Positions 2,627 through 16,360 of a DNA stretch of 53,551 nt are shown piece after piece; the first letter of the stretch is position 1; each line of letters opens with the position of its first letter. Under the pieces are notes generated by a model. It saw only the letters and a list, made by a program, of their open reading frames with translations, ran no database searches and was not told the DNA's origin. The translations under genes and the position numbers were made by a program. This DNA is from an uncultured Pedobacter sp. (GTDB taxonomy: Bacteria; Bacteroidota; Bacteroidia; Sphingobacteriales; Sphingobacteriaceae). The DNA lies in assembly GCA_946478755.1 (NCBI GenBank), contig CAMLDJ010000010.1:1-53551 (forward strand), written 5' to 3'.

Positions 2627-3132
2627 TTATTGTCTGGATGGAATGAATTTCAAAGCGTAGAAATTCATACAATAGCGTTTTCCGGTCGGCGCCGGACCAT
2701 CGTCAAAAACGTGTCCCAAGTGCAAACCGGTGCTACGCTCGATCACCTCGTCACGCACCGTTCCAAATGAAGTATCTTTAACGATCATGATCGCTTTTTC
2801 ATCGATCGGTTCAAAAAAGCTGGGCCAACCTGTACCCGAATCGAACTTCGCCGAAGATGCGAACAAAGGCTTTCCAGTTGCAGCACTAACATAGATCCCT
2901 TTCCTATGGTTATCGTGATAAGGGTTCTTAAAAGGCCTTTCGGTTCCCTTCCCGACCATGATATCATAAGCTTCAGACGATAATATTTTCTTCCAGTAAC
3001 AGTCAGGCTTAGCAGCTGGAAAGGATCCGACAGTTGGCGCATGTGGCACTTTTGTGCTTTAATGTCGCCCTGACTACAAGCGGTCAGTGTTGCGAATAAA
3101 AGCGGAAATACGAATATATTTATCCTTCTCAT
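2627..3132 (-). CDS. msrB: Lipoprotein methionine-(R)-sulfoxide reductase MsrB, frameshifted near the 5' end
   Basis: The catalytic domain (2627-3049) is a complete MsrB: it has GTERPF, the FDSGTGWPSF motif, the HLGHVFDDGP motif and the resolving/catalytic region RYCMNFYALKF with the active-site cysteine. The zinc-binding CxxC pairs are absent, as in many MsrBs. In the adjacent frame, starting at ATG 3132, there is an intact lipoprotein signal peptide ending in LTAC. The two frames join if one A is added to the AAAA run at about 3050-3053; in the reductase frame there is a stop just upstream of GTG 3049. So the gene is either a one-base frameshift mutant or the run is misread. With the signal peptide it would repair oxidised methionines in the periplasm. 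A promoter of the local ECF type ends only a few bases before ATG 3132. Confidence 0.8.
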
Positions 3133-3138
3133 ATTTAG

Positions 3139-3167
3139 TTAGTCGTAACGGCCGCCATATCCTTACA
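3139..3167 (-). promoter_or_regulatory. ECF-type promoter of msrB-rclC unit
   Basis: Read on the minus strand, this is TGTAAGG (3161-3167), a 15-nt spacer, then CGACTAA (3139-3145). It is one of five sites in the window with identical spacing. The -10 box ends six bases before ATG 3132, so the mRNA would be leaderless or nearly so. Confidence 0.72.
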
Positions 3168-3311
3168 GCTGCTGGTGCATTTGATGGTCATTTCCAACGT
3201 AAAAAAACTGCAGCAATACCTATTGTCCTGCGGCCTTGATGTCCGGGTTGCATTAAAAAATCCCCTCTGCCGCGCTCCGGATCCCGGTCAGTCATTATCA
3301 ATGATAGGTTT

Positions 3312-4226
3312 CTACAGCGAGATCGTGTACTGGACGTTTATGACACCTTTGCGGGTAAGTCCGTCAGGTCTCACTTTACTCACGATGAAAGGAGTTGCAA
3401 GAAGCAGTTCCAGGCTATTGCCGTTTTTAAATCTTTTAGTGCCCACGATGCTGCCGTTCAGCGTAAAACCGTCTGAGCCTTCGATGATGTTGCGCTGTCC
3501 AAAACGGTCTTCGTAGGTATCTCTGCCTAAGTGATAAATACCTAGCAAGCTTGGCTTTAAGACAATAGCTGATGCCGGCAGTTGAATATAGTAACCAATG
3601 CGGCCCAGGACATCACTTTTTCGTTTAAAGTTATTTGTAGGTGCGAATTCGTTTGCGCGGAAATCGTTGTGTTCGTCGGGAAAGAAGGTGTTTTTATTCA
3701 CCTGTATAACCGGTACCTGTATCCCGGCATCAAACTCCCAGCTTTGGTTGACGATGTAATTAATACCACCTATGGCATCATAGGTACCGATACTGGCTTG
3801 GTAATCCAGCGGTAAGGGCTTGCCATCTTTGTTTTTATGTTTGCCGGCAGTAAGTGGCACCTTTACGCCGCCAATTATATTAATCGTACTGGCTGATTTA
3901 GTTCTCAGGGCGTAATTAAGCGTACCATAAATATCGCCTATGTCAAAGGCGCTGCCTAAAAACCCCGTCGCATAATTGGCAGTCAGTTTAGTTCGGAAGG
4001 ACAAACGTTCACTCAGTTTACTTCCATACTCTATATAAGCATTAGTAATGTTGGTCTGCTCGTAGCCGATGCCGTAATTCAGGCCGAAACTTAAGGTGTG
4101 CCTGGCTGAATCAGCCACATTGTTTTTGAGCACGCCAAGGCTACAGAAACCTGCGTCGCTGCAGCCCTGACCAAAAGTATAAGTTGTGCAAAGCAGGGCT
4201 ATACAAGAGAAATATATATTTTTCAT
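3312..4226 (-). CDS. Predicted outer-membrane beta-barrel protein
   Basis: A 304-residue protein with a signal peptide (cleavage near residue 19, TFGQ) and many alternating hydrophobic/aromatic strands, ending in a strand with a terminal hydrophobic residue (VQYTISL), as in outer-membrane barrels. I do not recognise a named family. It starts one base after the stop of the DM13 lipoprotein gene and is surely co-transcribed with it from the ECF-type promoter at 4679-4707. This points to an envelope function in the same stress regulon. It could be a channel or a structural barrel; no substrate can be read from the sequence. Confidence 0.7.
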   Translation of the reverse strand: MKNIYFSCIALLCTTYTFGQGCSDAGFCSLGVLKNNVADSARHTLSFGLNYGIGYEQTNITNAYIEYGSKLSERLSFRTKLTANYATGFLGSAFDIGDIYGTLNYALRTKSASTINIIGGVKVPLTAGKHKNKDGKPLPLDYQASIGTYDAIGGINYIVNQSWEFDAGIQVPVIQVNKNTFFPDEHNDFRANEFAPTNNFKRKSDVLGRIGYYIQLPASAIVLKPSLLGIYHLGRDTYEDRFGQRNIIEGSDGFTLNGSIVGTKRFKNGNSLELLLATPFIVSKVRPDGLTRKGVINVQYTISL

Positions 4227-4227
4227 A

Positions 4228-4653
4228 TTAATAGGTAAATTGAGTGTAACCGAATAAGTGACTGTATTGCTGGCAATAGATCAGTGCATAAGCATAATCC
4301 TGAACTTTGACATTATCCGGGATATCATATAGTTGATTCCCTTTTGTAGATTTTAGCGAACCCAAATTCACAAAATTGACCGGCCGCTGCTCCTTACTGA
4401 TATACACTTTAAGGTCGGGTCCATTGCTGCTGCTAAAATTTTCCAGTGCCAGTTGATATTTGCCGTTGGTTATATATATACGGGCTGTGCCGCTTACTGA
4501 ACCATATGGGCCGTTAATAAATCCGCTACTGTCGGTTTCAGGCTTGGACATCATCATGTCCACCCTTTCATTGAGCACTGCGGTCGGAGTGCTTTCTTTT
4601 TTGCAGCTGGCCATAAGTGCGATGATGGTGCTGAAATAAATGATTTTTTTCAT
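4228..4653 (-). CDS. DM13-domain lipoprotein
   Basis: A 141-residue lipoprotein (lipobox cysteine at C17, followed by KKE). The body matches the DM13 domain: GPDLKVYIS, LGxLKSTKGNQxYDIP and the conserved cysteine region IYCQQYSHLFG. DM13 domains have been proposed to take part in electron transfer; a defined activity is not established. The gene is the first of a two-gene unit with the beta-barrel. Its promoter shares a back-to-back region with that of the YHS gene on the opposite strand, so both units should respond together. Confidence 0.82.
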   Translation of the reverse strand: MKKIIYFSTIIALMASCKKESTPTAVLNERVDMMMSKPETDSSGFINGPYGSVSGTARIYITNGKYQLALENFSSSNGPDLKVYISKEQRPVNFVNLGSLKSTKGNQLYDIPDNVKVQDYAYALIYCQQYSHLFGYTQFTY

Positions 4654-4678
4654 GAGCTAATTGATTGTGGTTTGCTGG

Positions 4679-4707
4679 TTTGTCGGCAACCTGCTGATTT
4701 CCTTACA
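4679..4707 (-). promoter_or_regulatory. ECF-type promoter of DM13/beta-barrel unit
   Basis: Minus-strand TGTAAGG (4701-4707), 15-nt spacer, CGACAAA (4679-4685). It ends 26 bases before the DM13 start codon. Its -35 box is the left arm of a palindrome (CCTTACAA...TTGTAAGG) whose right arm is the -35 of the divergent YHS promoter. Confidence 0.75.
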
Positions 4708-4718
4708 AAAAAAAATAT

Positions 4719-4747
4719 TGTAAGGTTTTGCCCCCAGCTGCGACAAA
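4719..4747 (+). promoter_or_regulatory. ECF-type promoter of YHS operon
   Basis: Plus-strand TGTAAGG (4719-4725), 15-nt spacer, CGACAAA (4741-4747). The position rules out the upstream TTG at 4728 as the start of the YHS gene and supports ATG 4770, about 15 bases after the expected transcription start. Confidence 0.75.
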
Positions 4748-4769
4748 GCTGGTAAACACTCGGAAGACT

Positions 4770-5225
4770 ATGTATAAATACCTATTGCTTATCGTATTTA
4801 CAGCCTTGATCCTGAACTCAGCACGGGCTCAAAAAAAACAACTTAACCTGGATGATAAGGGCCTTGCGTTGGCAGGTTACGACCCGGTAGCGTATTTTAC
4901 GATGCAAAAAGCGGTCGAAGGGAAAAAAGAAATTACGTTGGTGCATGATGGCGTGACTTATCGTTTTGTCAGCAACCAGCACCGCAGTCTGTTTAAGGCC
5001 AACACCGCTAAATATTTACCGCAATATGGTGGTTGGTGTGCCTATGCCATGGGAGCCAGCGGCACCAAAGTAGCTGTTGACCCGGAGACTTTTAAGCTCG
5101 TAAGTGGCAAGCTTTACCTCTTTTACAACAAATTCCTTAACAATACCAAAAAATCCTGGGATAAAGACGAGAGCAGGCTGAAAACCAAAGCTGATATAAG
5201 TTGGGCCAGGTTCACTCAAAATTAG
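4770..5225 (+). CDS. YHS-domain protein, exported
   Basis: A protein of 151 residues with a signal peptide (about residues 3-21, ending SARAQ) and a YHS-type domain marked by LAGYDPVAYF, GVTYRFVSNQHRSLF and YGGWCAYAMG. The family is thought to bind metal and is often found beside DoxX and redox proteins. The start is set at ATG 4770, preceded by GGAAG, because the promoter at 4719-4747 lies over the longer open frame. It is the first gene of a tight rightward unit that continues with DoxX, DinB-like and NRDE/ATP-grasp genes. Role in oxidant stress is inferred from the promoter and neighbours. Confidence 0.8.
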   Translation: MYKYLLLIVFTALILNSARAQKKQLNLDDKGLALAGYDPVAYFTMQKAVEGKKEITLVHDGVTYRFVSNQHRSLFKANTAKYLPQYGGWCAYAMGASGTKVAVDPETFKLVSGKLYLFYNKFLNNTKKSWDKDESRLKTKADISWARFTQN

Positions 5226-5271
5226 AGAATAAACATAAAAACATATCTTTTTACACTAAAATCTCAATATC

Positions 5272-5673
5272 GTGACGACAAAAAACCTTGATATGCTAAC
5301 CTGGGGCCTCCGCCTGATAGCAGCCGGCATTATGCTGCAAACCCTTTTCTTCAAGTTTACAGCCGCGCCGGAATCTGTGTATATCTTTACCAAATTAGGG
5401 ATGGAGCCATATGGACGCATCGGCATCGGCTGCCTAGAACTGATCGCCTCCCTATTGATCCTGTTTCCCCGTACCACTATTTTAGGCGCGCTGCTAGGCA
5501 TAGGCATTATTGTGGGGGCTATCTTTTTTCACCTGACACAATTAGGCATCAATGTACAGAACGATGGTGGTAAACTTTTCATTTTGGCTTTAGTGACGTT
5601 AATCAGCTGCATGGCATTAGTGCCGCTCTTAAAAAAACAATTGTTCAACTATCTACCATTTACCAATCGCTGA
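5272..5673 (+). CDS. DoxX-family membrane protein
   Basis: A 133-residue protein with four hydrophobic segments (roughly residues 10-30, 45-65, 70-90, 100-125) and the FKFTAAPES and E-L-I-A-S-L features of the DoxX family. Family members are linked to redox or thiol stress in several bacteria, but the activity is not settled. Translation probably begins at GTG 5272; the alternative ATG is seven codons further in. It lies 46 bases after the YHS gene and 4 bases before the DinB-like gene, so it is part of the same operon. Confidence 0.78.
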   Translation: MTTKNLDMLTWGLRLIAAGIMLQTLFFKFTAAPESVYIFTKLGMEPYGRIGIGCLELIASLLILFPRTTILGALLGIGIIVGAIFFHLTQLGINVQNDGGKLFILALVTLISCMALVPLLKKQLFNYLPFTNR

Positions 5674-5677
5674 TCCT

Positions 5678-6178
5678 ATGCCGCTTAAAGAACCTATAAC
5701 CAATTTGCTAGAACAGCTACACGGTATTATCGGCGGGCTGACCAATACCGAATTTACACATCCGCTGACCATCTTATCCGGATCAACCATAGGTCAGCAT
5801 GGCCGTCATATACTGGAGTTTTATTTGGAACTCAATAAGGGTTATGCGATCGGGGAGGTTGATTATGACCGCCGCGAAAGAAACCACGCCGTAGAAAACG
5901 ATAAAGAGGTAGCGCAGCAATGTCTACGGGAAATTATCTGTAGTTTAGGGAAACCCGACCGGAAACTCGTGCTGGTGGTAAACTATGATGCTGAGGAATC
6001 TCAATCAATCCGAATACAAACCAATTACTACCGGGAACTTATCTACAACCTGGAGCATACCGTACATCATATGGCACTGATCAGAATAGGCATTGGTGCC
6101 ATCTCAGCAATAGAGATACCGGCCGGATTTGGCATCGCGGCATCCACGCTTAAATACAGGCAGGGATGTGCACCGTAA
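5678..6178 (+). CDS. DinB-superfamily protein
   Basis: A 166-residue helical-bundle protein of the DinB/YfiT type. The likely metal-binding histidines are in GQHGRHILEF (around residue 50) and in the later EHTVHHMA motif. Many members use a low-molecular-weight thiol or bind a divalent metal; the reaction here is unknown. It follows DoxX by 4 bases, and its last 13 bases overlap the start of the NRDE gene, so translation is probably coupled. The position within an oxidant-linked operon would fit thiol chemistry, but that is inference. Confidence 0.72.
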   Translation: MPLKEPITNLLEQLHGIIGGLTNTEFTHPLTILSGSTIGQHGRHILEFYLELNKGYAIGEVDYDRRERNHAVENDKEVAQQCLREIICSLGKPDRKLVLVVNYDAEESQSIRIQTNYYRELIYNLEHTVHHMALIRIGIGAISAIEIPAGFGIAASTLKYRQGCAP

Positions 6179-7848
6179 CTTATATACCGGCCAAGGAAGG
6201 CTTTTATCTGACTTCAAACCGGGATGAGCATCAAAATCGCGGTACGGCGATTTCGCCGGCTACTTATGGCAACTTGCTTTATCCCAAAGACCCCGATAAA
6301 AGCGGTAGCTGGATCGCTGCTAAGACAAATGGCGACGTGGCGGTACTATTGAACGGCGCTTTTGCCAAACACATCCAAAAGCCGTTTTATAAGAAAAGCC
6401 GCGGCTTACTACTGCTGGAAGTCATTGCAAACACTCACCCGGAACGGTATTTTGAAAGCGTTGATCTGCACGATATTGAGCCTTTTACCCTGGTGCTTTG
6501 CACAAAAGGGATGGTTTGTGAATGCCGCTGGGATGGAGCATATAAATACTCGGTTCAGCTTGATCCGCAACAGCCGCAAATATGGAGCTCTGCAACGCTT
6601 TACGATGAAATAAACCAAAGGGAAAAATTCAGCCGTTTTAAATCGGCGAATAAGAAGGACCGTGCAGCTGTAATTGATTTTCATCGGTCGGAATGCTTAA
6701 CGGGCCCTGTTAGCACCGTAAGCATCACACATATCCAGGTAAGTTATACCCAAGTGGATATGACATATGAGGATCTTAAAACCAACACAACACAGGCAAA
6801 GCAGTTGGATATAGTTAGGAAGGAAATTTCATGGTTGAATCTGCGCATTTTTTTGATAAAGCTTTTTAATTGGGAGTATTGGCCTTATTATGTTGTCTAT
6901 ACGCCTGTAATGTTCTATTGGTTTTGGCTCAGTATTAAGTCACGTGCCATTTTTTTCTTTAATACGGCTAACCCTGGCATGAAAAATGGCGGGTTCGCCA
7001 TGGATAGCAAGTATCAAATTTACACCCATATTCCGCAATATTGTCCAAAGACGATTCTGATTAAAGCTGGTACACCGGTGGCAAACATCAACGTTGCTTT
7101 GCCACTGATTGCCAAGCCTGATATCGGCCAACGTGGTTTGCAGGTGAAATTGTTAAAATCTCAGGAAGACCTCCAGACTTATGCAGCTAACAGTAAGGTA
7201 GATTTTTTACTGCAGGAATATATTGATTATCCTAAAGAAGCCGGGATATTTTATTACAGAATGCCGGGCAGTGATATTGTAAGCATCACTGGTATCGTTG
7301 GAAAGGAACTGATGAGTGTAACCGGCGACGGATGCTCCACTTTACAGGAGCTGTTGGCCAAAGAGCCGAGATATCTGCTGCAACTGCCAGCATTAGCCAA
7401 ATACGATTACCAGGCACTACAACGTATCATTCCCGCAGGCGAAATTGCCCTGCTGGCACCTTATGGCAATCATAGCCGCGGCGCAAAATTTATTGACCTT
7501 AGCGATCATCTGACCGACGAGCTGGTACAAAGTGTCCACGCGGTTTGCACACAGATCCCAGGCTTTTATTACGGTCGCTTAGATGTGAAGTACCATACCT
7601 GGCCGGAACTCTGTGCCGGTCAATTCAAGATCATGGAGGTAAATGGTGCTGCCAGCGAGCCGGCTCATATTTACGATCCTAAACATTCGATATTTTTTGC
7701 CTGGAAAGAGATCATCCGTCATTGGAGTATCTTATACCAGGTAAGTAAACAAAACCGCAGGGAGCGCGGACTGAGTTATATGTCCTACCGAGAAGGCATA
7801 GATATGATCAGACGGAACACGCGATACGTAAAGTCGGCCAATTCTTAA
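6166..7848 (+). CDS. NRDE (Tango2-like) domain fused to an ATP-grasp-like domain
   Basis: A 560-residue two-domain protein. Residues 1-215 are an NRDE/Tango2-type domain: it begins M-C-T-V, giving the conserved Cys2, and has the TSNRDE signature at about residues 17-22. From about residue 220 the protein is a different family: a hydrophobic YWPYYVVYTP...FYWFWLSIKSR segment, then a body that resembles ATP-grasp ligases such as D-Ala-D-Ala ligase relatives (QEYIDYPKEAG near 350 and KIMEVNGAASEP near 490 for the metal-binding E-x-N). The C-terminal part is usually a separate protein in related bacteria, as I remember it. The start is fixed by the conserved MCT and overlaps the DinB-like gene. 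The function of the fusion is unknown. Confidence 0.7.
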   Translation: MCTVTYIPAKEGFYLTSNRDEHQNRGTAISPATYGNLLYPKDPDKSGSWIAAKTNGDVAVLLNGAFAKHIQKPFYKKSRGLLLLEVIANTHPERYFESVDLHDIEPFTLVLCTKGMVCECRWDGAYKYSVQLDPQQPQIWSSATLYDEINQREKFSRFKSANKKDRAAVIDFHRSECLTGPVSTVSITHIQVSYTQVDMTYEDLKTNTTQAKQLDIVRKEISWLNLRIFLIKLFNWEYWPYYVVYTPVMFYWFWLSIKSRAIFFFNTANPGMKNGGFAMDSKYQIYTHIPQYCPKTILIKAGTPVANINVALPLIAKPDIGQRGLQVKLLKSQEDLQTYAANSKVDFLLQEYIDYPKEAGIFYYRMPGSDIVSITGIVGKELMSVTGDGCSTLQELLAKEPRYLLQLPALAKYDYQALQRIIPAGEIALLAPYGNHSRGAKFIDLSDHLTDELVQSVHAVCTQIPGFYYGRLDVKYHTWPELCAGQFKIMEVNGAASEPAHIYDPKHSIFFAWKEIIRHWSILYQVSKQNRRERGLSYMSYREGIDMIRRNTRYVKSANS

Positions 7849-7994
7849 CGCGAAGTTATAATGGGAAGTTTTAAAGGTCTTGACCAAGCGGTTCCGCAAG
7901 AGCAGCAACTCCAGACCTTTAACTGGGTTGTCAGAAGACTAATTAATTATTGTCTTTTACAGATTTTGTAGATAAATAAATTATTGTACATTTA

Positions 7995-8022
7995 CATTGA
8001 CTGACTAAACAGTCAGTCAATG
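7995..8022. promoter_or_regulatory. Palindromic operator of the TetR operon
   Basis: A perfect inverted repeat with 12-bp arms (CATTGACTGACT, 7995-8006, and its complement, 8011-8022) around AAAC. It ends seven bases before the SnoaL-like start codon, so a bound protein would block transcription or early elongation. The TetR-family gene two genes downstream is the natural candidate, giving negative autoregulation. Confidence 0.8.
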
Positions 8023-8029
8023 ATAAAAT

Positions 8030-8437
8030 ATGAAAACAAAAGAAATCGCAGAAAAGTATTTCAATGCAATGGTTGCTGGTAACTTCGATGAAATGTCCGA
8101 ATTAAAAACGCCTGATTATGTTTATTGGTGGAGCGGAGAGGGATCCTGGCCGTATGGAGGTTATCAATCACTAGAAAACCAGACAAAATTATGGGGCATC
8201 GTAGCAGAACGATTCCCGGCGGGAATGAAAATGACGCTTCGGTCTGTTACAGCAGACGAAGAGCGTGCAGCGCTTTATGTTCATATTCGGGGAACGCGAA
8301 AGGATGGCCGTATTTACGTAAACAATGTGATGTTGCTTCTTACCTTTAAAGACGGCTTAATTAGCGGGCTTTATGAATATTTGGATACCATTATGGTTAA
8401 TGAATTGTTCTGTGGCCGGATGGATGATATAAAGTAA
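8030..8437 (+). CDS. SnoaL/NTF2-like protein
   Basis: A 135-residue single-domain protein with the layout of SnoaL-like (NTF2 fold) proteins: an N-terminal helix AEKYFNAMVAGNFDEM, a central beta sheet and a C-terminal YEYLDT strand. Such proteins bind or transform small hydrophobic molecules; the ligand is unknown. It is the first gene of a three-gene unit with a TetR regulator (13 bases downstream) and an NAD-binding oxidoreductase, and lies directly behind the palindromic operator. A role in handling a small toxic or signalling molecule sensed by the TetR protein is plausible but not shown. Confidence 0.75.
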   Translation: MKTKEIAEKYFNAMVAGNFDEMSELKTPDYVYWWSGEGSWPYGGYQSLENQTKLWGIVAERFPAGMKMTLRSVTADEERAALYVHIRGTRKDGRIYVNNVMLLLTFKDGLISGLYEYLDTIMVNELFCGRMDDIK

Positions 8438-8450
8438 TCGCCAGGAACCT

Positions 8451-9014
8451 ATGGATAAAAGGGAAAAGTTACTTGAAACAGCGTTAGAATTGTTTGTTTC
8501 ACAAGGATTTAATGATACACCGACAAGTAAAATTGCAAAAGAGGCAGGGATAGCAACAGGGACTTTGTTCTATTTTTTCCCGACTAAAGATGACTTGATC
8601 GTTTCACTTTACTTAAAATTGAAGGGGCATGCGGCAGAAAGCATAAATGCTGCATTGGCGGAAGTTAAATCAACAAAAGCGATTATCCAGAGCTATTATG
8701 AAGAGTCGCTTAAATGGTCGCTCCGTAATCCCAGTGAGTTTTTGTTTCTGGCGCAGTTCTCCAATTCCCCCTATCTGAAAAAAGTCGGAGCTGATAAAAT
8801 TTCAGCGCAGATAACCCCCGTATTACAGCTTTTCAGTTCGGCTGTAGAGGAGCAAAAGATCGCCGATATTGATGTAAACTTATTGTATGCCTTGATCAGT
8901 AATCAGGTGTTTGGTGTAAATCAATACCTTTCATCAAACAAATTCACTAAAAAAGAACAGCACAGCATCATTCTAGATACATTCGCTATGTTTTGGAAAA
9001 TGATTGAACGCTGA
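8451..9014 (+). CDS. TetR/AcrR-family regulator
   Basis: A 187-residue protein with a TetR-type helix-turn-helix in residues 8-50 (ALELFVSQGF...TSKIAKEAGIATGTLFYFF), followed by an all-helical ligand domain. It is expected to be a repressor released by a small molecule. The 28-bp palindrome at 7995-8022 is the probable operator. The gene is second in its own operon. The ligand cannot be predicted. Confidence 0.9.
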   Translation: MDKREKLLETALELFVSQGFNDTPTSKIAKEAGIATGTLFYFFPTKDDLIVSLYLKLKGHAAESINAALAEVKSTKAIIQSYYEESLKWSLRNPSEFLFLAQFSNSPYLKKVGADKISAQITPVLQLFSSAVEEQKIADIDVNLLYALISNQVFGVNQYLSSNKFTKKEQHSIILDTFAMFWKMIER

Positions 9015-9028
9015 TATGTAATGGAATA

Positions 9029-9694
9029 ATGAAAATAATAATTACAGGAGCTACAGGGATGATCGGGGAAGGAATTTTGCTGGCCTCTCTTGATCATCCC
9101 GATATTACCGCAGTATTGATGGTAAATAGAAGAGCTTCTTCATTAAAACATCCCAAACTCTCTGAACTGATCGTAAAAGATTTTACAGATATGGCCGCCC
9201 AGAAAAACCAACTAACTGGCTATGATGGCTGTTTCTTTTGCGCGGGCATTAGTTCCTTTGGTATGAACGAGGATAAATACAACCAAATCACTTTTTATAC
9301 TACTATAATGTTTGCAAAGCAACTTGCTGGTTTCAATCCAGATATGGTTTTCTTTTACTTATCTGGAGTATATGCAGATAGTTCGGAAAATGGAAAAATA
9401 ATGTGGGCAAGGATTAAAGGCAAAACAGAGAACGCATTAAATAAGCTACATTTTAAAGTGGCTTACAGCTTTCGTCCAGGGTTTATTACTCCTTTGAAAA
9501 CACAAAAAAATGTAAGGTGGATTTATAAAGGACTTAAGCTTATTTATCCTTTTGTTTTTCCTAATCAAACCTTAACATATGATAAAATTGTAAGTGCTTT
9601 AATTCGAACGCTGACACTTGGATATCACAAAAATGTTTTAGAAATAAAAGATTTAAAATTTATTGCTAAACAGGCTATTTCCAATCCTTTTTAA
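9029..9694 (+). CDS. NAD(P)-binding epimerase/NmrA-like oxidoreductase
   Basis: A 221-residue Rossmann-fold protein with the cofactor motif GATGMIG at residues 7-13 and a FFCAGISS motif near residue 73. It looks like the atypical short epimerase/dehydratase group that lacks a full YxxxK site (the nearest equivalent is GVYADSS followed by K). The substrate is unknown. It begins 14 bases after the TetR gene and is the last gene of that operon. Its 3' end overlaps by 42 bases with the convergent molybdoenzyme remnant. Confidence 0.8.
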   Translation: MKIIITGATGMIGEGILLASLDHPDITAVLMVNRRASSLKHPKLSELIVKDFTDMAAQKNQLTGYDGCFFCAGISSFGMNEDKYNQITFYTTIMFAKQLAGFNPDMVFFYLSGVYADSSENGKIMWARIKGKTENALNKLHFKVAYSFRPGFITPLKTQKNVRWIYKGLKLIYPFVFPNQTLTYDKIVSALIRTLTLGYHKNVLEIKDLKFIAKQAISNPF

Positions 9695-10075
9695 ATTCTT
9701 AATTCCATATTTTACTGGTATGATTAGCCTTAAAGGGGCGCCGTGCTCGACTAATAAAGGCTTTCCGTTTTTCATAAGCCAGTATTGGCTGAGGGTGAAT
9801 GGCGCTCTCCATTTCCAGCCCCACATAGTATTGGCCATTGGGCGTTTCAAGTCCCATATATTTCTGTTTAAAACACCGTTTTCAGCCTTAATCGTTTCCT
9901 GCCTTTCCCTTAGCGTTCTGGCATCTCCGTTCCAGGAAAAGGGCAAGATGGAAAAAGACAAAATGAAAAAAATGAAAATGGATTCGGCCAAGCACAGTAA
10001 AATGACTAACGACAAGATGGTTATCAACAGGAATACAAATAATGGATGTATTCTATTGCGCAGGGAAAATTCCAT
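9653..10075 (-). pseudogene. Decayed sulfite-oxidase-family molybdoenzyme
   Basis: The minus-strand frame from ATG 10075 encodes a hydrophobic N-terminal segment (about residues 10-48) and ends with a clear piece of a molybdopterin-dependent oxidoreductase, NGKPLLVEHGAPLRL followed by a VKYGIKNLK motif. The part that should come just before lies in another frame: from 9863 down to about 9770 it reads YMGLETPNGQ and YYVGLEMESAIHPQ, typical of the same family. A 2-base loss near 9770 would explain the break. The stretch with the cofactor-binding cysteine is absent, and the C-terminus is cut where the oppositely oriented oxidoreductase gene ends. It lies 21 bases after the anti-sigma gene, so the intact ancestor was probably the third gene of the sigma operon. 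A functional small membrane protein cannot be fully excluded. Confidence 0.68.
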
Positions 10076-10096
10076 AGCCAATCTTTATTTTGCTGA

Positions 10097-10384
10097 TCAA
10101 TTTTTGTTCAGGCGGCTATTGATGCGTTTTTGCATCCGCTCTTTAAATTTTTCGTCCAGCTTCAGCGTATTGGAATCCGCATTCACCAGCTTCCTGGCCA
10201 TTTGGTTGATCACCGCGCTCTGCCGCATGAAAGTGACACAAATTGCACATCCGGTCAGGTGGATTTTTAGTTCCAGTTTCTCCCTTAACGTAATTTTGCC
10301 TATTTGCTGCTTCTCTATCAAATAGGTCGCCTTACGGCAGTTGTATGCAATCTTTTTTATTTCTGTTTCTGTTAGTTCTTTCAT
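10097..10384 (-). CDS. Zinc-finger anti-sigma factor
   Basis: A 95-residue soluble protein with an anti-sigma zinc-finger pattern: a first cysteine in NCRKATYLIEKQ (C16) and an H-x3-C-x2-C motif in HLTGCAIC (residues 42-49). This ZAS-type arrangement binds an ECF sigma factor and can be released by thiol oxidation. It has no membrane segment, so it should act in the cytoplasm. It starts 10 bases after the sigma gene and is co-transcribed with it. An oxidant signal sensed through the zinc cysteines would suit the genes carrying the shared promoter; that is inference. Confidence 0.85.
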   Translation of the reverse strand: MKELTETEIKKIAYNCRKATYLIEKQQIGKITLREKLELKIHLTGCAICVTFMRQSAVINQMARKLVNADSNTLKLDEKFKERMQKRINSRLNKN

Positions 10385-10394
10385 CTGTTCGTGC

Positions 10395-10994
10395 TTAAAT
10401 CCAGTTTTTTTGGAGGCATGACCTTAGGTTTACTTTAGCCCTGTGAATAATGACCCAAAAATTTGATGAGCTGATCTTGAGTTCACTGCAGATCAGCTCG
10501 GTGGTCTCTTCATCTATATGCTTCATAGAGAAAACTGATAGCCAGAGCGCAGGCAGCTTATCCATGCAAGCCTTCAATATTCTTTCAAACTCTTTATTTT
10601 CCAGCGCATCGGAGGTTTCTATGCCGAGCTTAGCCGGTCTGTGCTGATCATTCCAATGGCCATCGTTCTGGTCAAAAAAATCCTCGTCCGATCTTTCTAT
10701 ATCCGCTTGAATGATCTCTTTACTGAGTCCCGATGACCTGGAGCGGTAAACGTCAACGATTTTATTTTTTAAGATAGCCGTTAGCCAGGTTTTCTCAGAA
10801 CTCCTGCCTTCAAACTTTTCCCGGCGTTCCAGTGCTGCAAGGAAAGTTTCCTGCACCAGGTCCTGCGCCTGCTCCTGATCATTGATGCGGAAGACCGCAT
10901 AAGAGAAAAGATAGTCGGCATACTTGTTTACCCAACTGTGCGGGTCGATGGCATTTTTGTCAATAGTATCAAACTCAGGATCTTTTTGTAACAT
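10395..10994 (-). CDS. ECF sigma factor
   Basis: A 199-residue sigma-70 family protein of the ECF type. Region 2 is in residues 24-90 (DYLFSYAVFRINDQEQAQDLVQETF is split across it, with the DLVQETF core at about 45-51), and region 4 is in residues 140-190, with LPALWLSVFSMKHI and the recognition helix SSNFWVIIHRAKVNLR. No extra domains are present. Its own promoter (11059-11087) carries the sequence repeated upstream of four other units in the window, which indicates autoregulation and defines a probable regulon. The gene is followed directly by its zinc anti-sigma factor. Confidence 0.92.
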   Translation of the reverse strand: MLQKDPEFDTIDKNAIDPHSWVNKYADYLFSYAVFRINDQEQAQDLVQETFLAALERREKFEGRSSEKTWLTAILKNKIVDVYRSRSSGLSKEIIQADIERSDEDFFDQNDGHWNDQHRPAKLGIETSDALENKEFERILKACMDKLPALWLSVFSMKHIDEETTELICSELKISSSNFWVIIHRAKVNLRSCLQKNWI

Positions 10995-11058
10995 ATCTAA
11001 ATATAAGGTTCTGTTTGGTCATCTCATCCCACATTTCTGTCGCATTCTTTTTGACCCC

Positions 11059-11087
11059 TTAGTCGTAACAGCCCGTCAATCCTTACA
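11059..11087 (-). promoter_or_regulatory. ECF-type autoregulatory promoter of sigma operon
   Basis: Minus-strand TGTAAGG (11081-11087), 15-nt spacer, CGACTAA (11059-11065), about 65 bases upstream of the sigma start codon. It shares the GTTACGACTAA core with the msrB promoter. A second TGTAAGG in the opposite direction (11106-11112) forms a palindrome with it but has no recognisable -10. Confidence 0.78.
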
Positions 11088-11220
11088 AAGTATTTTGTAT
11101 TTTTTTGTAAGGAATTGACGCCGCTTTGCAATCGGAAAATTTTAGTGGGTGCTAAACTCTCGAGTGGCGCTCTGTGAGGTTTTTCATCGAGCCGTTTACC
11201 CGATTGATGCTGGTCTCTAC

Positions 11221-12186
11221 TTAGTTGTTCTTCAAGAAGTTCAGGATAAGTATGGCAACCTCTCTTCCTTTTTCTTCAACAGCAAAATGTCCTGCATCCA
11301 GTAAGTGTAATTCGGCATTTGGAAGATCTCTTAAATATGCTTTGGCCCCTTCTGAAATAAATTTCATATCCTTTTCACCCCATGCAATTAAAGTTTTTGG
11401 TTGATTATTTCTTAGCAGCTCTTGCCAATAGGGATAACTCAGCAAATTATTGTAATAGTCCTGAAATAATTGCACTTGAATTTTTTTATCAGCATCCGAC
11501 TGCAAAAAGTATAAATCATGAACCCATGCATCGGGTGATTGTATATCATACCTTGAGGAGTCAATATCAAATAAATATTGCTTGTTGATAATGGCTTCTT
11601 TTGACATCAAACCAAACAAAAAATCAATTTTAGATTTCGAGGAATCATCATGTGCGGATTTGAAGAACAATTGTCTATCAGCCGTGAGTCCCTCTAAATA
11701 AGCATTTGCATTTTGAACGATAAGATGAGTAATACGCTTAGGCTTCATAGCATACATTCTGTATCCTACAGGAGCACCAAAATCTTGCATATACATTACA
11801 TAGTCTTTAACTCCAATGCTGTCAAGTAGTGTGTTCGTAAAGTTGGCCAATGTATCAAATGTATACTTCACATTATTGGGATTAAGCCTGTCACTAAATC
11901 CTGACCCTATGTTGTCGGGCGCTATAACGTGGTACTGAGTTGCCAACATTGGAATAAGATTTCTATAGGTATGAGAAGATGATGGAAATCCATGTAGCAG
12001 AACAATCGTCGGTCTGTTTTTGTCTCCCGCTTCTCTATAAAACATGCGTAAACCTTTCACATACTGGTAGCGATAATTTGTTTGAGGTGGGAAATCATAT
12101 TTGGTAGATTGTGCTTTAACAGTTTTAATATTGCAAAAACCGATGATCAAGAAGAATATTATCATCAAAGGTGTTCTCATAATCAT
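11221..12186 (-). CDS. Alpha/beta hydrolase, exported, with Asp nucleophile
   Basis: A 321-residue alpha/beta hydrolase with a signal peptide (ending KTVKAQ at about residue 26). It has the oxyanion HGFPSSS motif, a nucleophile elbow QDFGAPVG whose nucleophile is aspartate as in haloalkane dehalogenases and epoxide hydrolases, an acid region WGEKD and the catalytic histidine in DAGHFA. The substrate is unknown. The frame is open upstream to 12327, but the ECF-type promoter at 12263-12291 lies inside that extension and the signal peptide starts at 12186 or 12180, so I use ATG 12186. A decayed paralogue is at 1824-2066. Confidence 0.85.
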   Translation of the reverse strand: MIMRTPLMIIFFLIIGFCNIKTVKAQSTKYDFPPQTNYRYQYVKGLRMFYREAGDKNRPTIVLLHGFPSSSHTYRNLIPMLATQYHVIAPDNIGSGFSDRLNPNNVKYTFDTLANFTNTLLDSIGVKDYVMYMQDFGAPVGYRMYAMKPKRITHLIVQNANAYLEGLTADRQLFFKSAHDDSSKSKIDFLFGLMSKEAIINKQYLFDIDSSRYDIQSPDAWVHDLYFLQSDADKKIQVQLFQDYYNNLLSYPYWQELLRNNQPKTLIAWGEKDMKFISEGAKAYLRDLPNAELHLLDAGHFAVEEKGREVAILILNFLKNN

Positions 12187-12262
12187 TAAATTTAGTTTAA
12201 AATGGGAGGCTTGGATGCTACACTTGCCGCCAATATTTAGGGCCAGCCAAATATTACATTGC

Positions 12263-12291
12263 TTAGTCGGGCGCTTAATGGAATCCTTACA
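12263..12291 (-). promoter_or_regulatory. ECF-type promoter of the hydrolase
   Basis: Minus-strand TGTAAGG (12285-12291), 15-nt spacer, CGACTAA (12263-12269), about 77 bases upstream of ATG 12186. It is the fifth copy of the shared promoter. Confidence 0.75.
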
Positions 12292-12436: not shown

Positions 12437-12945
12437 TTAACCGGTCAGCTTACAATCGCTATAAACCCGCTGTAAGATTTCGGGGAACCTTAAAGTTGCA
12501 GCGATCCAGGTTAATGCTTCGATCGCTGCCGGTAAAATAACATTTTGCCTATGCTGCAAATGTGCCGTGATAGTACGATAATCAGCAAACCTGGTGTCGA
12601 CCACTGTTTCCAGTATTTGAAGATCGTAATCAGTTCTTTCAAAAGAAGTGCCTTTTTGCTGTCCGATGATCTCCATAACAGGCTGATGGTCTAGCCTCGC
12701 ATCATACAGCCGTTGTGCGGATGTATGGCCCCAGCCCCCGAGGTTGCAATGCATACGCCCACTTCACCAGTGAACCTGGCATGTCCGCAGGCCATAAAAG
12801 CGGCCATCTCCTCATGACGGGGCTGTATAAAACGAATGGACTGGTTTCTGTTCATCGTACCCAGCAGTCCATTGATACCATCCCCAGTATAGCCGAATAT
12901 TTTCTCAATTGCCCAGGCGCTGTAGTATAAATCACTTACATTCAT
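12437..12945 (-). pseudogene. N-terminal remnant of a TPP-dependent enzyme
   Basis: From 12945 the frame reads as the start of a thiamine-pyrophosphate enzyme of the pyruvate oxidase/acetolactate synthase type: IFGYTGDGINGLLG, then RHEEMAAFMACGHA with the catalytic glutamate, then VCIATSGAGAIH. Near 12720 the reading shifts to another frame that continues the family (LYDARLDHQPV, IIGQQKGTS) and then becomes unrecognisable before stopping at 12437. The family is normally 550-600 residues, so only about a fifth remains. It is not functional. It lies just left of the polysaccharide locus, with its intact 5' end facing that locus. Confidence 0.75.
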
Positions 12946-13119: not shown

Positions 13120-14541
13120 TCATTTTTCAACTTTCCATTCTTTAGGGGCGACAAATCCTTTTTTACCCACATCGAAGTTAGCAACTTCTGCTGTGGCCTT
13201 AATCGCATTAAATGGTGCTAAATCTTTTTTTAATAATTGGTAAGTACTGGTGTATTGGTCTTTTACATCGTTCTTTTCACTAACATCCCTGTCGATTTGA
13301 AAAAGTACATCAGATTTTAGTTTCATGCCAGAATTTTGATCCAGTTTTTCCAATATTTTCCAATTCCTATTTACCAAAACGCCATCTCCCAAAAAGAGAT
13401 TACGATTGATAAAAGATTGCTTTTGTTTTAACACTGGAAGAACATTGATCCCGTCGAGCGGATTTTTGGGTTTTTCCATAACATCGGCAGCAGCCAAAAT
13501 CGTAGGAAAAACATCGACAAAACCTGTAACTTGCTCGCTTTTCCAGCCACCCTTAAAAACTTGTGGCCATCTTATAATCGCTGGAGCTCTAACACCACCT
13601 TCCCATTGGGTAAACTTAGATCCGCGTAAAATACCGCTTGAACCAGCCTCATTTGGTGCATAACCGTTATCACTTTGGAATAGTACGATGGTATTCTGAT
13701 CAATTTTGAGGTCGTTCAAGGTTTTTAATATTCTCCCAATATTAGCATCTAAATTACTGACCATAGCCGCATAGGTTTGTTGCTTGGTATTACCCCTTCC
13801 CTCATCGCCTTCTTTACCGCCATTCGGGAAACTTGGTTTGGTAGCATCGTAACCGAAACGCTTTAAATCATCCTCTTTGGCCTGCAGTGGACCGTGGGGT
13901 GCATTAAAAGCAATATAAAGGAAGAAAGGAGATTCTTTGTGATATGATCTGATGTTTTTAATAGCCTCATCAGCAATGAGATCAGTAGAATATCCGACAT
14001 CATAACTGGAATTAAAATCATTGTGCCAATCCAGTTCGCCCTCCCGCTTATGCGTAAAATAATCAATAGCACCATTTAAATGGCCATAAAAATGGGTAAA
14101 GCCCCTGTTTAGTGGGTGATATTTTAAGGAAACATGACCAAGATGCCATTTTCCGAGTATGGCCCTGTTTTTATAACCTGCTGCTTTAAGCATTTCTGGC
14201 AGAAAAACCTCATCGGTGCTCACCCCAAAATCAGACCAGGGAGGAATAACCGTTTTCCTTAATCCGAAACGATCCGGATATCTGCCAGTAAGCAAGCCAG
14301 CCCTTGTTGGCGAACAAACAGCTGCTGTATAAAATCTATTTAGTTCTACCCCTTGTTTTGCCAGTCGATCAATATTTGGCGTAGGGATGTTTCCACCATG
14401 ATAGCCTACATCTCCCCAACCCAAATCATCAACGAGAATAATGATGATATTTGGCTTTTTATTTGATTGTGCCATAGACTCTCTCAAGGAAAAGCCCAGT
14501 ACTGACAAAATAATAAGTGTACCTGCTAAATACTTTTTCAT
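13120..14541 (-). CDS. Sulfatase (S1 family), exported
   Basis: A 473-residue formylglycine-dependent sulfatase with a signal peptide (about residues 1-25, SMAQ). The calcium-binding DD is at residues 38-39, and the modification motif C76-S-P-T-R ends the conserved TAAVCSPTRAG block. GKWHLGH and the later SDNGY calcium motif are present. It should remove sulfate esters from a carbohydrate in the periplasm after Cys76 is converted to formylglycine. It is the last gene of the leftward polysaccharide block, 121 bases after the preceding sulfatase. The regiospecificity cannot be read from the sequence. Confidence 0.9.
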   Translation of the reverse strand: MKKYLAGTLIILSVLGFSLRESMAQSNKKPNIIIILVDDLGWGDVGYHGGNIPTPNIDRLAKQGVELNRFYTAAVCSPTRAGLLTGRYPDRFGLRKTVIPPWSDFGVSTDEVFLPEMLKAAGYKNRAILGKWHLGHVSLKYHPLNRGFTHFYGHLNGAIDYFTHKREGELDWHNDFNSSYDVGYSTDLIADEAIKNIRSYHKESPFFLYIAFNAPHGPLQAKEDDLKRFGYDATKPSFPNGGKEGDEGRGNTKQQTYAAMVSNLDANIGRILKTLNDLKIDQNTIVLFQSDNGYAPNEAGSSGILRGSKFTQWEGGVRAPAIIRWPQVFKGGWKSEQVTGFVDVFPTILAAADVMEKPKNPLDGINVLPVLKQKQSFINRNLFLGDGVLVNRNWKILEKLDQNSGMKLKSDVLFQIDRDVSEKNDVKDQYTSTYQLLKKDLAPFNAIKATAEVANFDVGKKGFVAPKEWKVEK

Positions 14542-14662
14542 TTTAAAGCTGTTATGGAATTAATGGGTTACTGCAGTAGGAAACCATCAAATAAAGTCAT
14601 CTGCTTGCATTTTTTAGTTTAGATACAAACAGGTGGGGTTTTAGATCGCTAAATCCTATTTA

Positions 14663-16360
14663 TTATTTTGAAGGTTTTGGAAGCACATGGTGTTTGCTTG
14701 CCCAATCGTCCCACATGGCACTCAAAGTTTTCACCTTATCAGGATATTGCGCTGCCAGATCATTCAACTCACTTTTATCAGTAGCCAGGTTATAAAGCTG
14801 CCATTTTTTGCTAGGTCCAGCTACAACAAGTTTCCAATCTGCCAAGCGGACATATTTGCTGCCTTCGTGCTCATTAAACAGTGCCTGATGTGATGCCGCT
14901 TTCTGACCAGAAAATACCCCAGCCAGGCTTACACCCTCCAAAGGTGTTATGGCGTTGCCATTAAATTCTTTTGGATAGCTTACACCAGCCATATCTATAA
15001 ATGTTGCCATAAAATCCATTACGTGGCCAACATGACCTGTTTTACTACCTTTGTTTTTAATGCCAGCTGGCCAGGATACGATCATTGGTGTATGAATACC
15101 GCCCTCCAAGGATTGTGATTTCCATAATCTGAATGGTGTATTGGCCACATTTGCCCAAGCCGGACCGATAGAAAAAAATGTGGTTTGTGCTCCGGGCATT
15201 ACCGTTTTATCTGTTGCATAAGAAATCTCCCGTCCATCACGGGTTTGGCCTGGCCTATCAAAGCCTGGTCCATATTTATCAGAAAGTTCTGCACTGGCAC
15301 CATTATCGCTCAAAAAAACGAATACGGTATTATTCATTTCCCCAGTTTCTTCCAAGGCTTTTATCACCCTTCCCAACCCCCTGTCCATACGATCGATCAT
15401 GGCTGCATGAACCGCCATTGCTCTTGCATCCCACTCTTTATTTGGATTATCTGCCCAACTTAGCTGAGCGGGATGACGAGGCGAAAGTTTAACTTTATTG
15501 GCATCAATTAAACCTAAACTGACCATTTTTTTGTATCTGTTTTCCCTGATCACCTCCCAACCCACTTTATAGGTATCTTTATATCTTTCAATATCTTCTT
15601 CAGGCGCTTGTATTGGCCAATGCGGCGCATTATGGGCGATATATAAGAAAAAAGGCTGATCTCCTTTACTAAACTCCCTGATGTATCCCGCAGCCTTATC
15701 GTTGATTGCATCAGTGTGGTAATAATTTTTTGGTACACTTGTAACCGGTTTATTGCCTTCTACCAAGCTAAAAGGGTCATAAAAATCTATCACGCCCCAA
15801 ATGGTTCCATAGAATTTTTCAAACCCGCGACTGGTTGGATATTGATCTGCAGGCGAAAACAACGGGTGCTTTGCCTGGTGGTTTAACCACTTCATTTGAT
15901 CGTCCTTATTTTGCTGGGTTATGGTATTAGATATATGCCACTTGCCAGCCATTGCAGTACGGTAACCAGATTGTTTAAGTACTTCGGCTATTGTTACGGT
16001 GTTTTTTCCCAGATATCCTCTATACCCAGTATCATTCTGAGGTGTAGTCATATCGCCTATACCCGCATCATGGTTATATAAACCACTTAATAAGGAAGCT
16101 CTGGTAGGGCAACATCTACTCACATTATAAAATTCGGTAAACTGCATACCCTGTTTAGCAATGCGATCTAAGTTTGGGGTATTGATTTCTCCACCATAGC
16201 ATCCCAAATCAGAGTAACCAAGATCATCAGCCATCACCAGTACAAAATTTGGTTTTTTGTGCGCTTTTTTTTGAGCAGACACATCTTTTGGTGATGCTAT
16301 CACAAAGCTAGCCAAAAGCCCAGAAACAACTAGCAAATTTTTATTAACGCTTATTTTCAT
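14663..16360 (-). CDS. Arylsulfatase-A-like sulfatase (S1 family), exported
   Basis: A 565-residue sulfatase with signal peptide (cleavage near residue 29, VSAQ). The calcium DD is at residues 45-46, and the modification motif is C83-C-P-T-R inside NVSRCCPTRAS. GKWHI and SDNGAS are present. The double-cysteine CCPTR form and the length resemble the arylsulfatase group also seen in the gene at 34667-36340 in this window, so the two are probably paralogues with related substrates. Co-transcribed with the GH-A glycosidase gene (29-base gap). It belongs to the leftward block of the sulfated-glycan locus. Confidence 0.9.
   Translation of the reverse strand: MKISVNKNLLVVSGLLASFVIASPKDVSAQKKAHKKPNFVLVMADDLGYSDLGCYGGEINTPNLDRIAKQGMQFTEFYNVSRCCPTRASLLSGLYNHDAGIGDMTTPQNDTGYRGYLGKNTVTIAEVLKQSGYRTAMAGKWHISNTITQQNKDDQMKWLNHQAKHPLFSPADQYPTSRGFEKFYGTIWGVIDFYDPFSLVEGNKPVTSVPKNYYHTDAINDKAAGYIREFSKGDQPFFLYIAHNAPHWPIQAPEEDIERYKDTYKVGWEVIRENRYKKMVSLGLIDANKVKLSPRHPAQLSWADNPNKEWDARAMAVHAAMIDRMDRGLGRVIKALEETGEMNNTVFVFLSDNGASAELSDKYGPGFDRPGQTRDGREISYATDKTVMPGAQTTFFSIGPAWANVANTPFRLWKSQSLEGGIHTPMIVSWPAGIKNKGSKTGHVGHVMDFMATFIDMAGVSYPKEFNGNAITPLEGVSLAGVFSGQKAASHQALFNEHEGSKYVRLADWKLVVAGPSKKWQLYNLATDKSELNDLAAQYPDKVKTLSAMWDDWASKHHVLPKPSK

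Follow-up and report, generated by a model that had tools for sequence, protein, structure and literature searches.

A contig of a soil bacterium, an uncultured Pedobacter sp. (GenBank assembly GCA_946478755.1, contig CAMLDJ010000010.1, positions 1 to 53,551; this whole stretch of 53,551 bases is called the window below) encodes an extracytoplasmic function (ECF) sigma factor and carries five copies of one motif, TGTAAGG-N15-CGACWAA, which raises the question of whether these copies are promoters of a single regulon and what that regulon would protect the cell from. An earlier note on this DNA had proposed an ECF sigma regulon with a shared promoter, a zinc anti-sigma factor, a promoter directed at the sigma gene itself and envelope genes dealing with methionine sulfoxide and oxidants, and the results presented here support this proposal. 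We consider it probable that the five sites are promoters of the sigma factor encoded at 10395-10994 (minus strand), that this sigma is held by a zinc anti-sigma factor, and that the two form a Bacteroidota branch of the Neisseria SigE type devoted to the defence of the envelope against methionine oxidation.

Five sites in the window and their probable regulator

Searching the window for the exact motif returned five matches, compared with none in 100 dinucleotide shuffles and a chance expectation of 0.0006 (first-order Markov model), in agreement with the previous claim that five identically spaced copies are unlikely to be a product of chance. When up to three mismatches were allowed, 13 matches were found versus a chance mean of 7.4, the eight inexact ones all having three mismatches and being at chance level. 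A weight matrix built from 184 sites of 80 related loci placed the same five sites at the top of the window (41.5, 40.7, 33.4, 33.3 and 17.8 bits), the next score being 2.6 bits. The spacer sequences are not alike from site to site.

All five sites point at the genes to which they had been assigned before. The exact motif is found on the minus strand at 3139-3167, before msrB-DUF417, with a predicted transcript start at or adjoining ATG 3132; at 4679-4707 (minus), before a pair of genes, DM13 and then one for a 304-aa protein; at 4719-4747 (plus), the top-scoring site (41.5 bits), before the YHS-DoxX-DinB-NRDE operon, with a predicted transcript start at about 4754; at 11059-11087 (minus, 40.7 bits), before the sigma/anti-sigma operon, where the transcript would start at about 11052 and the sigma would be autoregulated; and at 12263-12291 (minus), before an alpha/beta hydrolase gene. 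Two corrections of start codons that followed from this placement stand, as the YHS protein starts at ATG 4770 and not at TTG 4728, which falls within the promoter, and the hydrolase at ATG 12186 and not at TTG 12327, which precedes the start predicted for the transcript.

The sigma factor (199 aa) has TIGR02943 as its best NCBIfam match, marginally under the cut-off (161.9 vs 162.2 bits), and is 99% identical to a Pedobacter kyonggii protein. Behind it, at 10097-10384 (minus), lies the gene for a 95-aa soluble zinc anti-sigma (ZAS) protein with the arrangement C16-X25-H42-X3-C46-X2-C49 (NF052368 antisigmaE, 44.1 bits, cut-off 50); it has no strongly hydrophobic helix (hydropathy maximum 1.3 over 19 residues), and its ligands C-X25-H-X3-C-X2-C are invariant in the 57 sequences aligned, from 56 related loci and the window. 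The zinc ligands of the neisserial anti-sigma NMB2145 are described as Cys4, His30, Cys34 and Cys37, with the same spacing in RsrA (PMC2893595). A gonococcal sigma (L141; L and G numbers are our labels for loci and genomes), compared over the sigma region of that genome only, reaches 284 bits with TIGR02943 and shares 38.6% identity with the window sigma across 86% of the latter; it is preceded by DoxX, Cys-repeat peptide and PF05114 MNIO genes and followed by a ZAS gene. The neisserial SigE promoter is given as GTMAGBWTT, a spacer of 12-13, CGTCTAAH and a conserved A six bases on (PMC2893595). The consensus of the related loci, GTAAGGWTT-N12-CGACTAA with an A at motif index 35, fits its -35 element, its spacer and its A, and not its -10 core CGTC. 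By sigma kinship, zinc-ligand spacing and promoter, the regulator is thus, as judged from sequence, kin of Neisseria SigE/NMB2145. The gonococcal record of L141 is filed as a plasmid but is chromosome-sized; PLSDB likewise lists NZ_CP119142.1, which at 2.17 Mb has the size of a chromosome, among the plasmids of Neisseria gonorrhoeae.

The motif and its predicted targets in related genomes

A sigma search of genome contigs provided the best 80 of 129 related loci, mostly from Pedobacter, Mucilaginibacter and Chitinophagaceae, which together with the window make up 81 sources. When TGTAAGG-Nk-CGAC was searched in them with k from 6 to 25, a spacing of 15 gave 189 matches in 78 of the 81 sources, whereas the other 19 spacings together gave eight, with at most two at any one. 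In the sequence logo the motif widens to TGTAAGG-WTT-N12-CGAC-T-AA, and the bases ahead of it are rich in A. An adenine at index 35, found in 144/189 sites, is the probable transcript start; this puts the start 9-10 bases past CGAC instead of the 6-8 bases anticipated in the earlier note. At 62 of the 189 sites, the gene that comes first is sigma. Leaderless transcription was discarded as a general rule for msrB: of six first-gene msrB starts, three are no more than 5 bases away from the predicted transcript start, a closeness shared by few starts in other families. Ten whole genomes reached through the loci have one to five sites each.

The relation between motif and sigma was then examined in 151 genomes of the family of Pedobacter insulae (G001), using the CGACNAA form of the motif and a sigma match at E <=1e-35; at most 21 candidates were scored per genome, so that a sigma could be missed. 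The motif was present in 36 genomes and the sigma in 35, with 29 having both, seven the motif only, six the sigma only and 109 neither (Fisher p about 1e-18, a value overstated since the genomes are related). The 29 genomes with both hold 80 of the 87 sites, compared with 7 of 22 reversed-control matches. Of the seven genomes with the motif only, G026 has its site before a more distant sigma-like gene and G154 before MsrB, and the other five have no assigned gene at theirs.

For the genes behind these sites, 60 regions were taken, covering the family sites except that of G001, one site twice (L082 and L140), and a few sigma regions devoid of sites. The first gene could be assigned at 73 of 87 site rows: sigma in 23, MsrB in 13, DUF1223 in 12, the Met-rich peptide in 11, AhpC-like in four, a 434-aa family in three and others in seven. 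Twelve of the 13 msrB sites are in regions with no match to the sigma, one of them (L136) in a genome with no sigma match, which argues that the motif acts in trans as well. Among 247 Bacteroidota genomes, 37 of which score 117 bits or more with TIGR02943, the CGAC motif was found in 15: 11 of the 37 and 4 of the 210 others, although six of the 11 (G160, G164, G169, G174, G181 and G203) may hold chance matches.

Targets were named from blast clusters whose representatives were checked with Pfam and NCBIfam, which confirmed DUF1223, AhpC/Redoxin, cytochrome b561, Oxidored_molyb (MsrP-like), SelR (MsrB) and DoxX; CcdA-like is a label given by eye. Counted per source among the 81, the operons behind the sites include the regulators (sigma in 65, anti-sigma in 56), AhpC-like proteins (32), DUF1223 (29), a Met/Lys-rich peptide (27), MsrP-like protein (24), cytochrome b561 (24), the 434-aa family (12), MsrB (11), a 169-aa family (11), DUF417 (8), YHS (6) and DoxX (6). 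The labels Spondin-like, for the 434-aa family, and sulfox169 are tentative ones of our own and have no Pfam support. The MsrP-like and cytochrome b genes occur together in 24/24 sources, and the Met-rich peptide accompanies the MsrP-like protein in 14. The MsrP-like representative (L028) scores 98 bits with Oxidored_molyb and has MsrP as its best NCBIfam match; membership of the MsrP equivalog NF003767 was rejected (84.4 bits, cut-off 207). A hydrophobic N-terminus is common to all 27 clustered Met-rich peptides, which from residue 29 on contain no Cys, about 18% Met and about 29% Lys. They were not assigned to the MXKDX family TIGR02953 (cut-off 41 bits), as one of three peptides scored 10.1 bits and the other two were not listed. 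Over the 78 sources with sites, the Met-rich peptide is behind them in 28 (the 27 clustered and one found by eye in L018), the MsrP-like/cytochrome b pair in 24, MsrB in 11, and at least one of the three in 46.

In the window itself, the msrB promoter aims at ATG 3132, which by eye opens a lipoprotein-type signal peptide, in a frame different from that of the MsrB domain (peptide-methionine R-sulfoxide reductase; 2627-3049, minus; TIGR00357, 166.5 bits). The gene therefore reads as frame-disrupted; an intact relative is present in L056. The next gene encodes a DUF417 membrane protein (2146-2580, minus; PF04224, E 3.8e-34), for which the former description as RclC-like is retained at the level of DUF417, as a distant likeness, and dropped at that of the RclC equivalog NF040476 (68.1 bits, cut-off 275). 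The second minus-strand operon consists of a DM13-domain protein (4228-4653; PF10517, E 7.2e-16) and a 304-aa protein (3312-4226), called a barrel in the earlier note, with no Pfam or NCBIfam match. On the plus strand, the YHS-domain protein (4770-5225; NF041384, 132.5 bits), of a family that comes first after six sites in the loci and the window, is followed by a DoxX-like membrane protein (5272-5673; PF13564, E 2.1e-7), a 166-aa protein (5678-6178) and a 560-aa TANGO2/NRDE-domain protein (6166-7848; PF05742, E 6.1e-12), the C-terminal part of which may be an ATP-grasp domain, as suggested by a weak NF009402 match at residues 291-354. The 166-aa protein, previously read as DinB-like, has no Pfam match of its own; its family occurs in four sources, and the relative in L059 is marginally under the DinB cut-off (21.9 vs 23 bits). 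This YHS-DoxX-DinB-NRDE set recurs in L059, without YHS in L080, and with DM13 ahead in L087. The alpha/beta hydrolase (11221-12186, minus; PF00561, E 1.6e-26) is, among the clusters of site-associated genes, a target in the window only.

A further gene had been described as a decayed sulfite-oxidase-family protein. It is decayed, but it is the remnant of two genes and not of one: the C-terminal part of an MsrP-like molybdoenzyme on the minus strand (approximately 9655-9860; PRK05363 MsrP, E 1.2e-5; about 67% identity to the MsrP-like proteins from other loci across 48 aa) lies beside a fragment of a gene for a secreted Met/Lys-rich peptide on the plus strand (approximately 9861-10033), both of which are regulon members elsewhere. 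The best E-value of the latter against the Met-rich peptides of other loci, 4e-8, is optimistic, as composition correction and the low-complexity filter were off. No ATG, GTG or TTG start adjoins the peptide remnant, and neither remnant (9653-10081 region) is preceded by the promoter motif.

Other genes surround these operons. At the start of the window, thioredoxin-like and short-chain dehydrogenase/reductase (SDR) genes (8-460 and 750-1592, plus) belong to families found behind the motif in a few other loci; no exact motif precedes the SDR gene of the window, and the region before the thioredoxin gene falls outside it. Beyond the hydrolase promoter, a short minus-strand frame at 12691-12945 matches the N-terminal domain of thiamine-pyrophosphate enzymes (PF02776), and the short frames at 12437-12945 (minus) look like pieces of a decayed gene for such an enzyme. 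Two adjacent genes, sulfatase-like by eye (13120-16360, minus), border the regulon region.

The -10 core in sister branches

The neisserial promoter has CGTC where the window has CGAC. We examined the sigma regions of 20 of the 26 strong-sigma Bacteroidota genomes without the CGAC motif, leaving out matches inside the sigma gene, where a coding match occurs. TGTAAGG-Nk-CGTC gave nine matches at k=15, in nine of the 20 loci, and none at the other fifteen spacings between 8 and 23; the remaining 11 loci have neither the CGAC nor the CGTC core. Three CGTC sites (L146, L148 and L149; Pfam for L148 only) precede operons with Cys-repeat peptide, MNIO, DUF2063 and DoxX genes, which stand behind a TIGR02943 sigma and are of the same kinds as in Neisseria. 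The others lie before AhpC-like genes with a CcdA-like start (L145, L150), YHS (L152, L156), MsrB (L154) and DoxX-like (L160) genes. Across the phylum, the result for the CGTC form is weak: it was present in 22/247 genomes, 14 of the 37 strong-sigma ones and eight others, with 25 matches vs 51 in the reversed control, many of the 25 being the coding match in the sigma gene. In L138, three TGTAAGG-N15-CGTC sites within 4 kb precede genes, one of 750 aa, that match no target cluster.

A tree was built from 72 sigmas, comprising the window, 38 of the other 96 CGAC rows and all other rows. With rows labelled CGAC, CGTC, both or none, it requires 11 changes, compared with 29.4 for shuffled labels (0/200 as low). 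The main CGAC clade (support 98/91) has 44 rows, of which 38 are CGAC, three none, two both and one CGTC, and its sister is a CGTC pair; one CGAC row (L131) falls outside it, and a number of the deep branches are long or open. At sigma residue 72, T is present in 92/97 CGAC rows vs 2/12 CGTC rows, which mostly have F, Y or R, and residue 82 is H or Y in 10/12 CGTC rows and V in 68/97 CGAC rows. The exceptions are L126 (CGTC with T72 and I82), L156 (CGTC with T72) and L131 (CGAC with I72 and Y82), and kinship alone could account for the pattern. Genome G098 encodes a pair of sigma paralogues, of which one adjoins CGAC sites (L103) and the other CGTC sites (L137).

We tentatively propose, at somewhat less than even confidence, that in the clade of the window the -10 core changed from CGTC into CGAC, with the -35 element and the N15 spacing fixed, and that region 2 residues 72 and 82 loosely track the switch. 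According to the same proposal, an unmodified Met/Lys-rich oxidant sink would have converged there on the MrpX peptide of ECF16 systems, as against the MNIO-associated Cys-repeat peptide of Neisseria and some CGTC relatives, and G098 looks as if the switch insulated two regulons. Outside the phylum, three TGTAAG-N16-CGACCA sites (2570, 4790 and 8508, plus) surround a 36% identical sigma on a Sphingopyxis plasmid (L142), two of them closely preceding FAD-dependent oxidoreductase genes; this promoter type may thus reach Alphaproteobacteria.

Proposed mechanism, rivals and known systems

We infer that the sigma reads the motif and that the five operons are co-expressed. The soluble zinc anti-sigma would keep the sigma inactive until hypohalous acids or other electrophiles, probably by oxidising the zinc-binding cysteines, lead to loss of the zinc and release of the sigma. 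Freed sigma would boost its own operon through its own promoter and then turn on envelope proteins that absorb or reverse methionine oxidation (MsrB, DUF417, DoxX-like, YHS and DM13). In the relatives, the Met/Lys-rich secreted peptide would serve as a sacrificial sink that the cytochrome b561/MsrP-like pair could re-reduce, and the regulon would further include DUF1223 and AhpC-like proteins. Both the signal and the protective role are proposed by analogy with work on Neisseria, Haemophilus and ECF16 systems.

Several observations weigh against this interpretation. Two of the most telling target genes of the window, the MsrP-like and peptide genes, are remnants, and its msrB is frame-disrupted. 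No gene was assigned at 14 of the 87 family site rows, nine of them in sigma genomes. In 32 of the 78 sources with sites, neither the Met-rich peptide nor the MsrP-like protein nor MsrB is behind the sites covered, most distal sites being uncovered, and several targets (the 434-aa lipoprotein-like family, SDR, NRDE and the hydrolase) have no clear link to methionine. A lack of enrichment of the motif in related genomes had been set in the earlier note as a refuting outcome; within the family the result favours the note (29 genomes with both, seven with the motif only), but across the phylum the motif as a whole is not enriched, 22 matches comparing with 41 in the reversed control, and only within the 37 sigma-bearing genomes is it enriched (18 vs 7). 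The main warning comes from meningococci, in which oxidants are described as leaving sigma expression unchanged, though the anti-sigma cysteines are essential (PMC2893595); something other than simple oxidation may thus be the signal.

The best rival keeps the regulator and the promoter and exchanges the oxidant for a thiophilic metal such as copper, which the Met-rich peptide would bind as Cu(I). Between the Met residues of the peptides, gaps of 5 (111) and 3 (73) prevail, a spacing compatible with Met-type copper binding, and three sister-branch loci as well as Neisseria carry genes for the Cys-repeat peptide, an MNIO enzyme and DUF2063; MNIO-modified EGKCG-motif peptides and bufferins are called copper-binding in PMC12636315. 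However, MsrB, MsrP-like and AhpC-like targets favour oxidant repair, the peptides of the relatives are free of Cys past their N-terminus, and no copper exporter or oxidase was noticed among the named target clusters, although no search was aimed at these, so that we regard a copper-centred role as unlikely. Far less probable is a promoter-independent origin of the motif, as the binding site of another conserved regulator or as a duplicated local repeat. Several sites are indeed clustered and divergent, and the genome-wide controls come from relatives and not from the window's own genome; yet the spacers differ, the sites recur before msrB genes distant from the sigma gene, the layout and the start-site adenine suit the known SigE promoter, and presence of the motif in the family tracks the sigma gene.

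A similarly slim chance is left to the analogy drawn in the earlier note, which would make this regulon the Bacteroidota counterpart of the reactive-chlorine SigF/NrsF system (ECF16). The payload is similar, a Met-rich peptide with an MsrP-type enzyme (PMC8315932, PMC4623255), as is the promoter outline (TGTAAC-N17-CGAA vs TGTAAG-N16-CGAC), and the analogy is kept for these targets, the Met-rich peptide and MsrP-like pair of the relatives. It fails for the regulator: the anti-sigma is a soluble 95-aa protein with a ZAS motif and no DUF1109/NrsF Pfam match, the promoter differs, and the sigma groups with Neisseria SigE and has TIGR02943 as its best, if borderline, match, ECF16 being set apart here by its published description. 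Membership of ECF16 was thus rejected, and the SigE-type reading is preferred.

Among the literature matches listed, none describes this regulon in Bacteroidota, although the sigma group may already be catalogued in the ECF reclassification. The regulator type is known from Neisseria SigE; what is new is that one clade has CGAC as its -10 core and that the payload converges on that of ECF16 systems. If the interpretation holds, a proteobacterial switch for envelope oxidant repair would be present in a second phylum as well, under a promoter searchable by sequence, little-studied envelope families (DUF1223, YHS, DM13, DUF417 and the Met/Lys-rich peptides) would gain a testable function, and a one-base promoter switch would be available in nature with candidate specificity residues.

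Among the known systems, Streptomyces SigR/RsrA serves a cytoplasmic thiol regulon and belongs to another sigma group. Its common feature with the window is the ZAS ligand spacing (cited in PMC2893595). Neisseria SigE (NMB2144) and NMB2145 have a related sigma, well within TIGR02943 where that of the window is borderline, and share that spacing and a near-identical promoter (PMC2893595), together with autoregulation, an msrAB target and DoxX in the sigma operon (PMC7907618), control of the msr genes and the sigma operon being judged here by the position of the motif. They differ in the CGTC core, against CGAC in the window and its clade, and in the Cys-repeat peptide with an MNIO enzyme of the gonococcal locus, against the Met/Lys-rich peptide with the cytochrome b/MsrP-like pair of the window's relatives. 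Haemophilus influenzae RpoE2/HrsE, placed nearest Neisseria SigE, is described as raised in expression by HOCl and H2O2 and as controlling msrAB and a DoxX operon (PMC7907618); as likened from that description, it shares the ZAS anti-sigma and the msrAB and DoxX targets, its other targets being different. The Brucella sigma BcrS, an ECF16 member paired with a six-helix anti-sigma, has a Met-rich MXKDX peptide and MsrQP under its control (PMC8315932), and in perchlorate reducers sigF/nrsF are named together with yedYZ and mrpX (PMC4623255). Both SigF/NrsF-YedYZ-MrpX and BcrS/AbcS-BcrXQP thus place a Met-rich secreted peptide and an MsrP-type enzyme under one ECF sigma (PMC4623255, PMC8315932), a likeness seen in the relatives of the window, which itself holds remnants only. 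As described for BcrS, these systems differ in their six-helix DUF1109/NrsF anti-sigma and their sigma group, and the ECF16 promoter is (T/C)GTAAC-N17-CGAA (PMC8315932), against TGTAAG-N16-CGAC at the five sites of the window. This comparison suggests that sacrificial Met-rich peptides have been recruited by two different types of sigma/anti-sigma pair.

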